Positions 15,693-19,753 of a stretch of DNA of 64,000 nt are shown here, piece by piece. The translations under genes and the position numbers were made by a program. Numbering within the stretch: position 1 is the first letter of the stretch; each line of letters opens with the position of its first letter. Origin of the DNA: Lachnospiraceae bacterium. GTDB lineage: Bacteria > Bacillota > Clostridia > Lachnospirales > Lachnospiraceae. The stretch covers positions 18,285 through 82,284 of the forward strand of contig JAMPFQ010000018.1 in assembly GCA_023664345.1 (NCBI GenBank), read 5' to 3'. The notes below the pieces were generated by a model that worked only from the letters and a program-made list of their open reading frames with translations, was not told where the DNA came from and searched no databases.

Positions 15693-16145
15693 CTACGCCC
15701 GTCTCTTCAACAGTCTTTTCACCGCCGCCACAGCCAGGCTTACAGGCCGCCTTACCGGTCTCATGAAAAGCCATATGGCGCAGGGAATCCTGTAACGCAG
15801 CATCCTGACATCTATCTCTCTTCCGTTTTTTATCAGAACGGTCATTTTCCCTTTGATCTGTTCCGGCCGCAGGGGACCCTCAATCTCTGTCTGGTTATCT
15901 CCCACCATAAAGAATCCTTTTTCGTCCTTTCTGTAGATCCTGTGAATCACCAGGATACTCTGCTCACGCCGGTACAACGCCACATCCCCGCGTTTCAGCT
16001 TCGCGGTATCCGCTTTCTGCACGATCACTTCGTCCCTTCCCGGTACGATCACAGGATACATGCTGTAACCCCGGGGCTTTATCTGCACCGCACTGCCCGA
16101 TTCCAGCAGTTCTTCAATATTCTGTTCCTGTATCTCTTTCCCCAT
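15693..16145 (-). CDS. S24/S26-type peptidase, likely peptide-maturation protease
   Basis: The start is the ATG at 16145, seven bases after GAGG, giving 150 residues. It has the signal-peptidase/LexA-like core: GYSMYPVIVPGRDEVIV, whose Ser28 is the usual nucleophile, KRGDVALYRRE, then VIHRI with His68, and FFMVGDNQ. The Ser/His pair resembles SipW/archaeal-type enzymes rather than the Ser/Lys pair of typical bacterial enzymes. A C-terminal hydrophobic basic segment (IPCAIWLFMRPVRRPVSLAVAAV) may dock at the membrane. It follows the Cys-rich small peptide gene on the same strand, past an attenuating hairpin. I infer that it removes the leader of that peptide. Confidence 0.8.
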   Translation of the reverse strand: MGKEIQEQNIEELLESGSAVQIKPRGYSMYPVIVPGRDEVIVQKADTAKLKRGDVALYRREQSILVIHRIYRKDEKGFFMVGDNQTEIEGPLRPEQIKGKMTVLIKNGREIDVRMLRYRIPCAIWLFMRPVRRPVSLAVAAVKRLLKRRA

Positions 16146-16263
16146 TCCGGTTCCTCGCTCCAAAAATTTCCTCCGATCATCAGTGCACGGCATCGACTTT
16201 CACCCACTCTGACAGTACTGCAGAGACCGCCCGCGCTTCCGAAAAAGATTCGCTGTTTTCCTG

Positions 16264-16301
16264 CATAAAGAAAGCAGGATAGTATAAGGCTACCCTGCTT
16301 T
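16264..16301 (-). terminator. Terminator/attenuator after precursor gene
   Basis: On the minus strand AAAGCAGG pairs perfectly with CCTGCTTT over a 15-base loop, followed by CTTTATG. It sits between the small peptide gene and the peptidase gene. The weak U tract suggests partial read-through, which would give much more peptide message than peptidase message. Confidence 0.65.
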
Positions 16302-16321
16302 TACAGCCTACAGTATCAGAA

Positions 16322-16555
16322 TCATTGCTTCAAAGGCATGCCATCCGGACATCCTGCAAAATCCTCTTGATAATTCTTGCCTTCGGACTGTGTACCGCCT
16401 GATGCAGAACATGCCTGGCAGGTATCTCTGCCCGGATTACAATCGGTAAAGCCAAACCTGCATCTTACTTCCCCTTCCGCAGCCCCGCTTGCGGCAAAAA
16501 CACCCTCTGCCTTCTCATTCATCGTGACAACAACCGGTTTCACATACTCTCCCAT
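16322..16555 (-). CDS. Cys-rich small peptide, candidate RiPP precursor
   Basis: A GGAGAA ribosome site lies six bases before the ATG at 16555; the longer upstream frame is not needed. The 77-residue product has a leader-like N-terminus, MGEYVKPVVVTMNEKAEGVF, followed by AASGA. The YVKP...EGVxAASG pattern is one I recall from Clo7bot-like and related small Cys-rich peptides of Lachnospiraceae. The C-terminal part has five cysteines (32, 39, 46, 49, 69) and many Gly, Ser, Thr and Asp residues. No export signal is present, consistent with leader-guided export by the nearby ABC transporter. The gene is divergent from the PqqD-kinase and transporter genes. The precursor role is inferred from context. 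Confidence 0.7.
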   Translation of the reverse strand: MGEYVKPVVVTMNEKAEGVFAASGAAEGEVRCRFGFTDCNPGRDTCQACSASGGTQSEGKNYQEDFAGCPDGMPLKQ

Positions 16556-16702
16556 CTTTAGTTCTCCTTTCCCAATACAAAAATATCTTATCAATAACGC
16601 ACCTGTATATGTGTCTGACAAAATTATTATAGCTACGCTTTCTTTTGTTTGTCAAGTATCACGGATATTTTTTTCATACTTATGGATTTTTGTCGTATAA
16701 AC

Positions 16703-16711
16703 TGATATAAT
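16703..16711 (+). promoter_or_regulatory. Extended -10 promoter for the PqqD-kinase/ABC unit
   Basis: TGATATAAT (TG at 16703, TATAAT at 16706-16711) is a consensus extended -10. There is no good -35. It lies 70 bases before the small upstream frame at 16781. Confidence 0.55.
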
Positions 16712-16780
16712 GTCCCCTGAAACAACAGCGAGATGGCATGTGAACCTGCCAGGGAACCCATAATTCTGAATAAAGGAGAA

Positions 16781-16810
16781 ATGCGCGGACAGCGCACGTC
16801 GCAAACATGA
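16781..16810 (+). CDS. Nine-codon upstream reading frame
   Basis: AAAGGAG directly precedes an ATG that opens the frame MRGQRTSQT and stops at TGA overlapping the ATG of the next gene (ATGA). The next gene has no ribosome site of its own, so translation is probably coupled through this leader peptide. Alternatively the small hairpin TGCGC-GGACA-GCGCA at 16782-16796 brings the ribosome site closer to the ATG at 16807. Confidence 0.4.
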   Translation: MRGQRTSQT

Positions 16811-17964
16811 TCCGGACTTCTGACGACTATATTTTACGCAGCTTTCACGGCACAGACTATCTGATACCCATCGGTCAAAAGATTGCCCTGGGGCGTCCCT
16901 GTCTTGAACTGAACGAAAGCGGCGTCCTTCTTTGGAACGCAGTCAAATCCGGCGTACCGGAACACCAGCTGGAAGACATGCTCCGGAAACGCTTCCCTAC
17001 CGACAGTACAGCGGAAGCAGACATAGCGGGAGATGCAGGGGCATTTATCTCTCGGCTGATTCAGGTCGGCGCCTTGACTGACGACCGGAACCTTCCCACG
17101 CCTCCCTGCAGATACTTCCGCATTGCAGGACTGTCCATCGCATTCACCGGGCATACCCCCTGTCTCCATGATTCTCTCTCTGCTTTTGCAGGTGATGCAT
17201 GCGATGAGATCTTGCAGCGCTGGATTCTCCGACCGCTCATATTTATGCCTGCTTTCTCCGGAGAGATCATTATCAACAACAGGCAGCTCACTCTCTTTTT
17301 GTGCGAAGAATATTACATCCTCATGTTTCCGGAAAATAAACATCTGCTGATGAGCAGGATATCAAAAGATGGGAGCGCCGCAGAATTTTATTACGACCAC
17401 CTTGTCACAGATGACGCCAGAACAGAACTTTTTTACGGTATGCGAAACGCTTTTCTGATCATGGCACAGAATAACGGTCTCTTCGCCCTCCATTCCGCAT
17501 CCGTTGATTACGGCGGCATGGCATGGCTGTTTTCCGGCAAATCCGGCATGGGGAAATCCACGCATACAGCGTTATGGAACAGTCTCTATCATGTGGAGAT
17601 CATCAACGGGGACATTAACCTGATCGGTATGGAAGATGGGGAACCCATGGTATATGGCACTCCATGGTGCGGCACATCCGGGATCTTTTCCCCGAAAACA
17701 TACCGACTGGGAGGCGTTGTGCTGCTGGTACAGTCAGCCCGGAATGAAGTACAGGAACTTTCGGAGGGACTCCGTCAGCTGCTCCTGTTTCAACGACTTA
17801 TTTCACCCACATGGTTTGCCTGGCAGGTGGATAAAAACCTGGAGTTCGCCGATCGGCTGCAGCAGCAGGTAAAAGTATGCAGGCTGTTGTGCACTCCTCT
17901 TCCCGAAGCCGTGCAGGTCATGAAATCATATATCGATTCCTTGCCTGAAAATCATAACTGTTGA
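16807..17964 (+). CDS. PqqD domain fused to HPr kinase-like domain
   Basis: 385 residues. The N-terminal ~90 residues match PqqD/RRE-type peptide-recognition domains (YLIPIGQKIALGRPCLELNESGVLLWNAV, then SRLIQVGAL). Residues ~225-385 match the HPr-kinase/PEPCK-like kinase fold: LFALHSASV with His229, P-loop FSGKSGMGKSTH (~243-253), INGDINLI with Asp269, and GTPWCGTSG. Stand-alone HPr-kinase homologues phosphorylate the C-terminus of some lasso peptides such as paeninodin. Here recognition and kinase domains are fused, which suggests a leader-binding peptide kinase. Its likely substrate is the Cys-rich peptide at 16322. It is ten bases before the ABC exporter gene. The function is inferred. Confidence 0.8.
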   Translation: MIRTSDDYILRSFHGTDYLIPIGQKIALGRPCLELNESGVLLWNAVKSGVPEHQLEDMLRKRFPTDSTAEADIAGDAGAFISRLIQVGALTDDRNLPTPPCRYFRIAGLSIAFTGHTPCLHDSLSAFAGDACDEILQRWILRPLIFMPAFSGEIIINNRQLTLFLCEEYYILMFPENKHLLMSRISKDGSAAEFYYDHLVTDDARTELFYGMRNAFLIMAQNNGLFALHSASVDYGGMAWLFSGKSGMGKSTHTALWNSLYHVEIINGDINLIGMEDGEPMVYGTPWCGTSGIFSPKTYRLGGVVLLVQSARNEVQELSEGLRQLLLFQRLISPTWFAWQVDKNLEFADRLQQQVKVCRLLCTPLPEAVQVMKSYIDSLPENHNC

Positions 17965-17974
17965 CGAGGTTGCT

Positions 17975-19753
17975 ATGGCTGAAAAAGAAAAACTCCTCAC
18001 ATTCTATATTCGCCGGATCAAAGAAGGACGCCTGCGGGAACTGATCGCGCAGACCGCATGGCTGTACTCTTATGTGCGCAGGTATCGGAAATCCATTATA
18101 GCTTATACTCTCATCGGCCTGACCGGAACCGCCGTTTCTCTCATAAGCAGCATTATTTCGAAAAACATGGTGGATATCATCACGGGACATCAGACAGGCG
18201 GGCTTGTCAGGACTTTCTGCCTGTTTATAAGCGTCACCATAGGGACAATACTGATCAACCAGCTGTCCAATTACGTATCAGGCATCATTTCCCTGCACGT
18301 TGACACAGACATGAAAGCTGACGTTTTCGATAAAATGCTGATTACGGATCTGGAAGCCTTTACCTCCTACCACACCGGTGACCTGATGACCCGGTGGAAC
18401 ACGGACGTTTCCGTCATTTCAAAAGGAATCCTCAACTGGATTCCTGACCTTGTTATATTTTCCGTAAAATTTATAAGCGCCTTCGCCGTCATCATATATT
18501 ACGACCCCACATTCGCGCTTCTTGCAATGATGGGAATTCCGGTGGGTATCATTATGTCCCGTTCCGTTTTAAAAAGAATACAGGACAATAATAAAGAAGC
18601 CGCCGCCATGAACGCGCGCATGTCCGGCTTTAATCAGGAAGCATTTTCCAACATACAGACTATCAAAGCTTTTGACCTGCTCAGGGCATACTCCCTTAGA
18701 CTGAGACAGTATCAGCAGGAATACCGACAGATGCGCTCCACCTATCTGCGCCTGAGCATGCTTACTTCGCTGATTATGTCAATTGTCGGAGTAGCGATTT
18801 CCTACAGCTGTTACGCGCTGGGAATATACCGCGTCTGGAGCGGTGCGATCTCATATGGCACCATGACCCTGTTCCTGTCTCTCGCAAACACCCTTACCAG
18901 CACGCTGAACAGTCTCATTTCACTGGTTCCCACGGCAATATCCATAACCACTTCCGCCAGTCGTCTCATGGATATTCTCGCCATGCCGAAGGAAGATTTC
19001 TCCATGCGCGATAAGATCAGTGATTTTTACAGCCGACATATACAGGAGGGGCTTTCCGTAAAGCTTCAGGATATCACCTACTCCTATCATACTGGAAAAA
19101 CCGTATTTAAAAACATTTCCTTCGAGGCGCATCCTCACCAGATCACCGCCCTTGTGGGACCCTCCGGCGAAGGAAAAACAACCATGCTGCGCATCATTCT
19201 CTCGCTGCTGAAACCTCAGTCCGGGAATGTAACGATCACCGCAGGTTTTTCCGGCAGGGAAAGCATTCCGTCTTCACCTGCAGTCAGGCAGTTATTTTCA
19301 TATGTGCCACAGGGCAACACCATGTTTTCAGGAACGATAGCCGATAATATGCGTATTGTAAAGCCGGACGCTTCCGACGAAGACATAGTGCGGGTACTGA
19401 GATCAGCCTGCGCATGGGATTTTGTATCCGCGCTTCCCGACGGTATCAACAGCAAAATAGGCGAACGTGGACACGGTTTTTCCGAAGGGCAGGCGCAACG
19501 GCTTGCCATTGCAAGGGCGCTCCTGCGAAACTCGCCGATCCTTCTTCTGGATGAAGCGACATCCGCGCTGGATGTCGCCACCGAGCGCCGCATATTAAAA
19601 AATATTCTGAAAGACACTTATCCAAGAACGTGCATCATCACCACGCACCGCCCCACCGTCCTCACCATGTGCGATTATGTTTATTCCATATCCAGCAGAC
19701 AATGCCGACTGTTGAGCGGCGTGGGCGTTGAGGAACTGATCAGACAGTTTTAA
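17975..19753 (+). CDS. ABC exporter, fused membrane and ATPase domains
   Basis: GAGG lies five bases before the ATG. The 592-residue half-transporter has a type I exporter domain (six membrane segments, ~res 40-320) and a C-terminal ATPase. Walker A is GPSGEGKTT (~394-402), the signature is degenerate (FSEGQAQR instead of LSGGQ), and Walker B is ILLLDEATSALD with ITTHRPT as H-loop. There is no N-terminal C39 peptidase domain, so leader removal would need a separate enzyme such as the S24/S26 peptidase at 15693. Position directly after the PqqD-kinase gene suggests export of the modified peptide. Confidence 0.88.
   Translation: MAEKEKLLTFYIRRIKEGRLRELIAQTAWLYSYVRRYRKSIIAYTLIGLTGTAVSLISSIISKNMVDIITGHQTGGLVRTFCLFISVTIGTILINQLSNYVSGIISLHVDTDMKADVFDKMLITDLEAFTSYHTGDLMTRWNTDVSVISKGILNWIPDLVIFSVKFISAFAVIIYYDPTFALLAMMGIPVGIIMSRSVLKRIQDNNKEAAAMNARMSGFNQEAFSNIQTIKAFDLLRAYSLRLRQYQQEYRQMRSTYLRLSMLTSLIMSIVGVAISYSCYALGIYRVWSGAISYGTMTLFLSLANTLTSTLNSLISLVPTAISITTSASRLMDILAMPKEDFSMRDKISDFYSRHIQEGLSVKLQDITYSYHTGKTVFKNISFEAHPHQITALVGPSGEGKTTMLRIILSLLKPQSGNVTITAGFSGRESIPSSPAVRQLFSYVPQGNTMFSGTIADNMRIVKPDASDEDIVRVLRSACAWDFVSALPDGINSKIGERGHGFSEGQAQRLAIARALLRNSPILLLDEATSALDVATERRILKNILKDTYPRTCIITTHRPTVLTMCDYVYSISSRQCRLLSGVGVEELIRQF

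Follow-up and report, generated by a model that had tools for sequence, protein, structure and literature searches.

A fused RRE-kinase protein in a Lachnospiraceae locus that probably encodes a variant of the linear polyphosphorylated peptide pathway

What does a locus make in which a small Cys-rich peptide and a signal-peptidase-like protein are encoded divergently from a kinase-like fusion protein and an ABC exporter? The question is raised by positions 15693-19753 of a 64,000-nucleotide stretch of Lachnospiraceae DNA (contig JAMPFQ010000018.1 of assembly GCA_023664345.1), hereafter the window. A preliminary description had reported a gene for a 77-residue Cys-rich peptide, a hairpin, an S24/S26 peptidase gene and a divergent pair encoding a PqqD-HPr-kinase-like fusion and an exporter, and all of these, including the four genes, were found in their places. 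That description had read them as a peptide-phosphorylation system of unrecognised class. Its linkage, RRE and kinase fold, leader-peptidase-like protein and exporter stood, while the unrecognised class did not: the parts list matches the pathway for linear polyphosphorylated peptides (LPPs) published in May 2026 (Popov et al., PMC13381572, cited here for passages of its text). We consider it probable, by analogy with that pathway, that the product of the locus is a linear peptide, phosphorylated on Ser and exported, and that the locus represents a fused-RRE variant of the pathway. Since every enzyme class matches and the RRE is fused, we treat the system as a new variant of the LPP pathway rather than an unrecognised class; with its RRE inside the kinase protein, it would be a variant working like the LPP system and not a plain member.

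The LPP pathway was described from the lpp cluster of Paenibacillus alginolyticus and comprises a discrete RRE (LppB), an HprK-like kinase (LppK), a SipW-like peptidase (LppS, S29/H68/D93), an MsbA-like exporter (LppD) and an NTP-transferase (LppN). The clusters lie in capsule loci, and their precursors, 35-200 residues long, share the leader consensus YxxPxVLxHQxIxFETxxS. RRE binding and RRE-dependent cleavage by the SipW-like peptidase were demonstrated. The precursor LppA is cut after T-1 to give A1-Q2-S3, and S3 is phosphorylated; both S3A and S3T abolish the modification, a strict need of LppK for Ser (PMC13381572).

Profile searches recognised the two halves of the fusion protein only faintly (PqqD, PF05402, 1.3e-4, just under the cut-off; HprK_rel_A, 0.0017, far under it). 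An AlphaFold2 model confirmed both, with a lasso-type RRE at the N terminus and an HprK/PEPCK fold at the C terminus, so that the absence of a kinase fold, named beforehand as a refuting result, was not found. Residues N36, D76, F80 and L84 of the modelled RRE align with LppB N33, D70, F74 and M78, which contact the YxxP motif, and the domain is accordingly predicted to be of the lasso/LPP type with YxxP contact residues. All 35 aligned fusions share the Walker A residues, His229 and Asp269. At the place of the HprK Asp pair, the fusion has an N-G-D motif.

The peptidase matched TIGR02228 at 4.6e-11, under the curated cut-off, and nothing in Pfam. Its Ser44, His84 and Asp99, which do not vary in an alignment of 15 sequences, correspond to the Ser/His/Asp triad of SipW-like serine peptidases, and it is the sole match to the S26 profile in its genome. 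Searched against solved structures, the S26 protein profile recovered no signal peptidase; its matches, all at E 0.005 or worse, were to unrelated chains. C39 double-glycine export was rejected as a mode of secretion: the family matches of the exporter include no C39 domain, in line with the earlier statement that it lacks its own peptidase domain.

Relatives were found when contigs were scanned with an alignment; a scan with the single protein gave no matches. Among 61 genomes, 18 contained matches, 17 with the fusion and one (G046) with separate genes. The leader profile matched 18 of the 61, one of which (G054) was dropped as spurious. With G054 and the unfused G046 removed before the co-occurrence test, fusion and leader occurred together in 16 genomes, the fusion only in one, the leader only in one and neither in 43 (Fisher 1.4e-12); the non-linkage that was to count against the system was not found. 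The fusion-only genome (G012) has its fusion on a 4.4-kb contig, and in the leader-only genome (G001) the contig stops right after the exporter gene adjoining the precursors. Of the 25 leader matches kept, 18 lie less than 5 kb from a fusion gene, two more less than 12 kb, and five on other contigs. A survey of 250 genomes across the family (thresholds 1e-5 and 1e-50) gave 13 with fusion and leader, five with the fusion only, two with the leader only and 230 with neither; the misses of the fusion scan, which scored at most seven candidate frames per genome, are upper bounds. That scan missed, for instance, the fusion gene beside S26, exporter and precursor genes in G595. The exceptions also include a diverged precursor in G409 and, in the stretch examined, an orphan precursor in G544.

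The four-gene neighbourhood, which the preliminary description had proposed seeking in other genomes, was complete in 39 of 62 fusion loci; the exporter was present in 56, a leader precursor in 48, S26 in 47 and an NTP-transferase in 33. Two copies (L077 of L029, L110 of L040) were dropped, and pairs of nearly identical loci (e.g., L103/L104, L034/L090) stay in these counts. The fused clade occurs mainly in Lachnospiraceae. In another genus of the family, L172 repeats the window order: S26 and a homologous precursor rich in Cys lie on the minus strand, fusion and exporter on the plus strand. Beyond the exporter come a further precursor and genes for an NTP-transferase, a flippase-like protein and a Stealth protein. 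As to a transglutaminase-like cysteine peptidase B2 of the lasso type, neighbours common to at least four loci include only one candidate, a 530-aa family (four loci) of which a single scanned member has a transglutaminase domain. The separate genes of G046 (contig C15, locus L042, 6535-8013) encode HprK, PqqD and S26 side by side, with no exporter or YxxP peptide found nearby; kinase matches occur in 29 genomes of its family.

The window precursor had no above-chance family match in Pfam or NCBIfam, and other precursors gave only chance-level matches (9 against Pfam, 7 against NCBIfam). As anticipated, alignment revealed a conserved leader and variable cores. The leader consensus from 53 sequences is nearly constant, M-x-x-Y-x-K-P-x-V ... 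E-G-V-[Y/F]-A-A-S-G; the list omits L039, which has no YxxP, and L078, whose two precursors have YEAP. By contrast, 60 cores of about 53 to 147 residues fell into nine clusters. The largest holds 38 (100-147 residues, 0-7 Cys), the second nine (80-100 residues, 4-5 Cys), the window type four (53-61 residues, four invariant Cys), and another three, of which both members scanned match CBM_2 weakly (1.4e-4 and 9.8e-4, under its cut-off); one pair and four singletons remain. A constant leader on unrelated cores is a mark of leader-directed processing, and Cys-richness is atypical for the cores of fused systems. A leaderless relic of a window-type core was seen in L158 (1501-1656, minus strand), immediately before the gene of a longer precursor. 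The window's own genome has a second cluster (L043, G000:C33:180500-196000), in which fusion and exporter are accompanied by three precursors but not by S26.

An invariant point of the leader is the Ser at the third position of AASG, found in 61 of 61 matches at E 0.01 or better and never replaced by Thr; the five weaker leader matches listed also have it (5/5). This count was made with a leader model that omits the AASG columns and whose training rows were picked by patterns permitting Ser, Thr or Asn at the Ser position; a separate tally with a pattern demanding Ser is circular and was not used for Ser constancy. By analogy with LppA S3, this Ser (Ser23 in the window) is the likeliest phospho-acceptor.

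At the window locus, the evidence consists of gene presence, conservation, linkage and the predicted fold of the fusion; from the LPP analogy we infer that its proteins act as LPP counterparts, and with that the acceptor residue, cut site and export. The RRE half of the fusion would bind Tyr-x-Lys-Pro (Y4-x-K-P7) of the leader, and the HprK-like half of the same chain would put one or more phosphates on Ser23 of AASG. The RRE-bound precursor would be presented to the S26 peptidase, which is predicted to cut N-terminal to AASG, after V19 or F20, and the ABC exporter would carry the product out. Both cut sites are proposed because the Ser stands at P+16 here and at P+15, with Thr at -1, in LppA: a cut after V19 would keep LppA's distance from Pro, and one after F20 its A-x-S pattern. 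The least certain step would come last: many relatives, and this genome at a separate locus, encode an NTP-transferase among glycan-assembly genes, and this enzyme might decorate the phosphate with a sugar or nucleotide.

The context of that NTP-transferase (NTP_transf_5, PF14907) points, in relatives, to a surface glycan. Among 59 loci, it shares one frame with a flippase-like protein in nine (L026, L027, L028, L029, L032, L035, L079, L082, L112), is joined to GT2 in three (L034, L040, L090) and, in L087, to a Stealth transferase. Its own domain was confirmed by Pfam in L026, L029, L034, L079 and L087. Of the partners, Pfam confirmed GT2 in L034 and Stealth in L087 and gave one weak match for the flippase (L029, PF01943, 9.9e-5, under the cut-off); the other assignments are by N-terminal similarity. 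Three types of glycan-assembly partner suggest coupling of the phosphorylated product to a lipid-linked glycan, or joint handling of the two. A bolder version would have the system conjugate proteins to glycans: small domain-sized, sometimes carbohydrate-binding-like proteins would receive an N-terminal Ser-(poly)phosphate, the NTP-transferase and the flippase, GT2 or Stealth phosphotransferase would join this phosphate to a surface polysaccharide, and the window Cys-rich peptide would be a short cargo. We regard this version as possible but doubtful. Relatives often lie among sugar-polymer genes; the window locus itself is not in a glycan locus. The only PF14907 match of its genome adjoins, by eye, flippase-like and Stealth-like proteins.

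An alternative in the line of the preliminary description would have a removed leader that runs up to AASG, with the cut after Ser or Gly and phosphorylation on Ser/Thr of the core. Signal peptidases follow a small-x-small rule, with small residues at -1 and -3, and AASG agrees with it; the window core also has several Ser/Thr. That rule would predict interchange of Ser, Ala and Gly, but the Ser is constant while each of the two Ala positions holds Ala in 55 of the 61 matches. In LppA, moreover, the cut precedes A1-Q2-S3 and so leaves the phosphosite in the product (PMC13381572). A cut after AASG is unlikely in our view: the segment is leader-like, as had been noted, and conserved, but it is probably not the end of what is removed; its Ser is the likeliest phosphosite and would lie C-terminal to the cut.

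Several observations weigh against the phosphorylating LPP variant that we favour. Structure comparison of the kinase half ranks PEPCKs at the top and HprK lower. S26 was not found in 15 of the 62 loci, some with long flanks (e.g., L095), and the window locus is without an NTP-transferase, the genome's only match lying on another contig. The second leader half, EGV[YF]AASG, differs from the FETxxS of LPPs, and 58 of 60 precursors place the Ser at P+16 (in the tally whose pattern demands Ser), against P+15 in LppA (PMC13381572). The pairing of leader and RRE is also imperfect. Precursors of L039 (6086-6577) and L176 (5681-6169) keep E-G-I-Y-x-x-S-G without YxxP, and their fusions are without the Asp predicted to bind the leader Tyr; the L116 precursor is without Tyr, yet its fusion retains D76, and the L038 precursor retains Tyr, yet its fusion is without D76.

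The PEPCK ranking would suit a kinase-fold half that is a regulator or scaffold and phosphorylates no peptide, leaving a locus for leader-guided export of small secreted proteins. Many cores appear, in alignments, to resemble folded domains, and the two weak CBM_2 matches would fit such cargo. Set against this are the invariant Walker A residues, His229 and Asp269, an invariant Ser that mirrors the strict Ser need of LppK, and a close pathway homologue that does phosphorylate (PMC13381572); we consider a silent kinase half quite unlikely. An ordinary lasso-peptide cluster with an overlooked cyclase is extremely improbable and was rejected: paeninodin-type clusters too have an RRE, HprK kinase, NTP-transferase and exporter in published accounts, but, as the preliminary description had said of the cyclase, no Asn_synthase match occurs on the fusion contigs of 16 genomes (6 to 220 kb) or anywhere in the window genome.

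Table 1. Features of the locus, in window coordinates.
Feature	Position	Strand	Remarks
S24/S26 peptidase gene	15693..16193	-	Archaeal-type signal peptidase I / SipW-like; predicted leader peptidase, LppS-like
Hairpin, 12 pairs, terminator or attenuator	16271..16301	-	Between precursor and peptidase genes
Precursor gene, 77 aa, stop included	16322..16555	-	Homologues in G033, G325, G446
Core after AASG, 53 aa	16325..16483	-	5 Cys, 4 conserved: C32, C46, C49, C69
Leader-like segment MGEYVKPVVVTMNEKAEGVFAASG	16484..16555	-	Within precursor
Ser23 codon, candidate phospho-acceptor	16487..16489	-	Suggested by Ser constancy and analogy to LppA S3
YxKP, predicted RRE-binding motif	16535-16546	-	YxxP role by analogy (PMC13381572)
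Promoter-like TTGACA-18-TATAAT	16626..16655	-	Upstream of precursor gene; consensus match only, 12/12
RRE-kinase fusion, 385 aa	16807..17964	+	PqqD/HPr-kinase-like
RRE (PqqD-like) domain, residues 2-94	16810..17088	+	Part of fusion
HprK/PEPCK-fold kinase domain, residues 97-384	17095..17958	+	Part of fusion; contains H229, D269
Walker A, S243-T252	17533-17562	+	In kinase domain of fusion
ABC exporter, MsbA-like, without peptidase domain, LppD-like	17975..19753	+	ABC_membrane + ABC_tran

The ATG of the precursor open reading frame (ORF), at 16555, is preceded by a Shine-Dalgarno-like AAGGAG (Table 1). Folding against background gave the hairpin (16301-16271) -16.4 kcal/mol and z -4.1; it is not among the sites listed by the terminator scan. 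The region holds five promoter-like sites, against a mean of 1.9 in shuffled sequence. The flanking genes encode a CobD-like aminotransferase, a spermidine-synthase-like protein, a metallophosphatase and a Bmp-type binding protein and appear not to belong to the system. A radical-SAM system was rejected, as Pfam and NCBIfam scans of window genes next to the locus gave no radical SAM. Plasmid carriage was rejected: 72,556 plasmid records gave only three weak matches, none covering 80% of the query.

Elsewhere, a histidine-kinase-like gene was seen by eye beside the system in L034, L035, L040, L090, L105 and L114, accompanied in all of these except L105 by a response-regulator-like gene; L034, L035, L040 and L090 also have an extra stand-alone PqqD protein. 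Among loci with stand-alone kinases, short YxKP-type peptides, chosen by inspection from 31 ORFs of which many are chance, have a Ser at P+15 to P+17 in L123, L125, L127, L135, L136, L143 and two of three in L155; those of L119, L121, L144, L062 and the third of L155 have none there. Radical-SAM-looking genes were noted by eye in L119, L121, L127, L149 and L155; [YW]xxP peptides were seen in each of these loci except L149.

These results would extend a peptide-phosphorylation pathway from one biochemical study to many Lachnospiraceae. Recognition and catalysis in one protein could perhaps ease purification and assay. The range of cargo under one leader, from CBM_2-like and four-Cys cores to larger domains, suggests that whole small proteins are handled, beyond linear peptides, and the role and partner of LppN, a question left by PMC13381572, may be hinted at by the flippase-like, GT2 and Stealth proteins to which the NTP-transferase is fused.

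A literature search covering mainly open-access papers found no fused RRE-kinase form, including in passages of PMC12710340, PMC7470986, PMC7533575 and PMC13381572. The main text of PMC13381572 contains neither 'Lachnospir' nor 'Clostridi', and 'fused' in the passages covered refers to expression tags, not to an RRE-kinase. With the HPr kinase/PEPCK superfamily, the fusion shares the fold and Walker A within residues 97-384 and differs in bearing an N-terminal RRE. Paeninodin-type lasso clusters resemble the fused system, in published accounts, in their PqqD-type RRE, HprK-like kinase, NTP-transferase, exporter and [Y/W]xxP leader; the fused system differs in that no macrolactam cyclase was found with it, that an S26 serine peptidase appears to replace the cysteine peptidase B2, and that its leader motif is of the Tyr type rather than the Trp type. 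The closest likeness is to the LPP pathway as PMC13381572 presents it, whose RRE, HprK-like kinase, SipW-like serine peptidase and MsbA-like exporter all have matches in the window locus, along with the YxxPxV leader half, variable C termini and lack of a cyclase, and whose NTP-transferase and capsule or glycan setting recur in many relatives. Against that common ground, the RRE is here the N-terminal domain of the kinase protein rather than a discrete protein, the Ser lies one residue farther from Pro, the cores include CBM_2-like and four-Cys families, and some relatives combine the NTP-transferase with glycan-assembly proteins in one chain, with the window locus standing outside a glycan locus.

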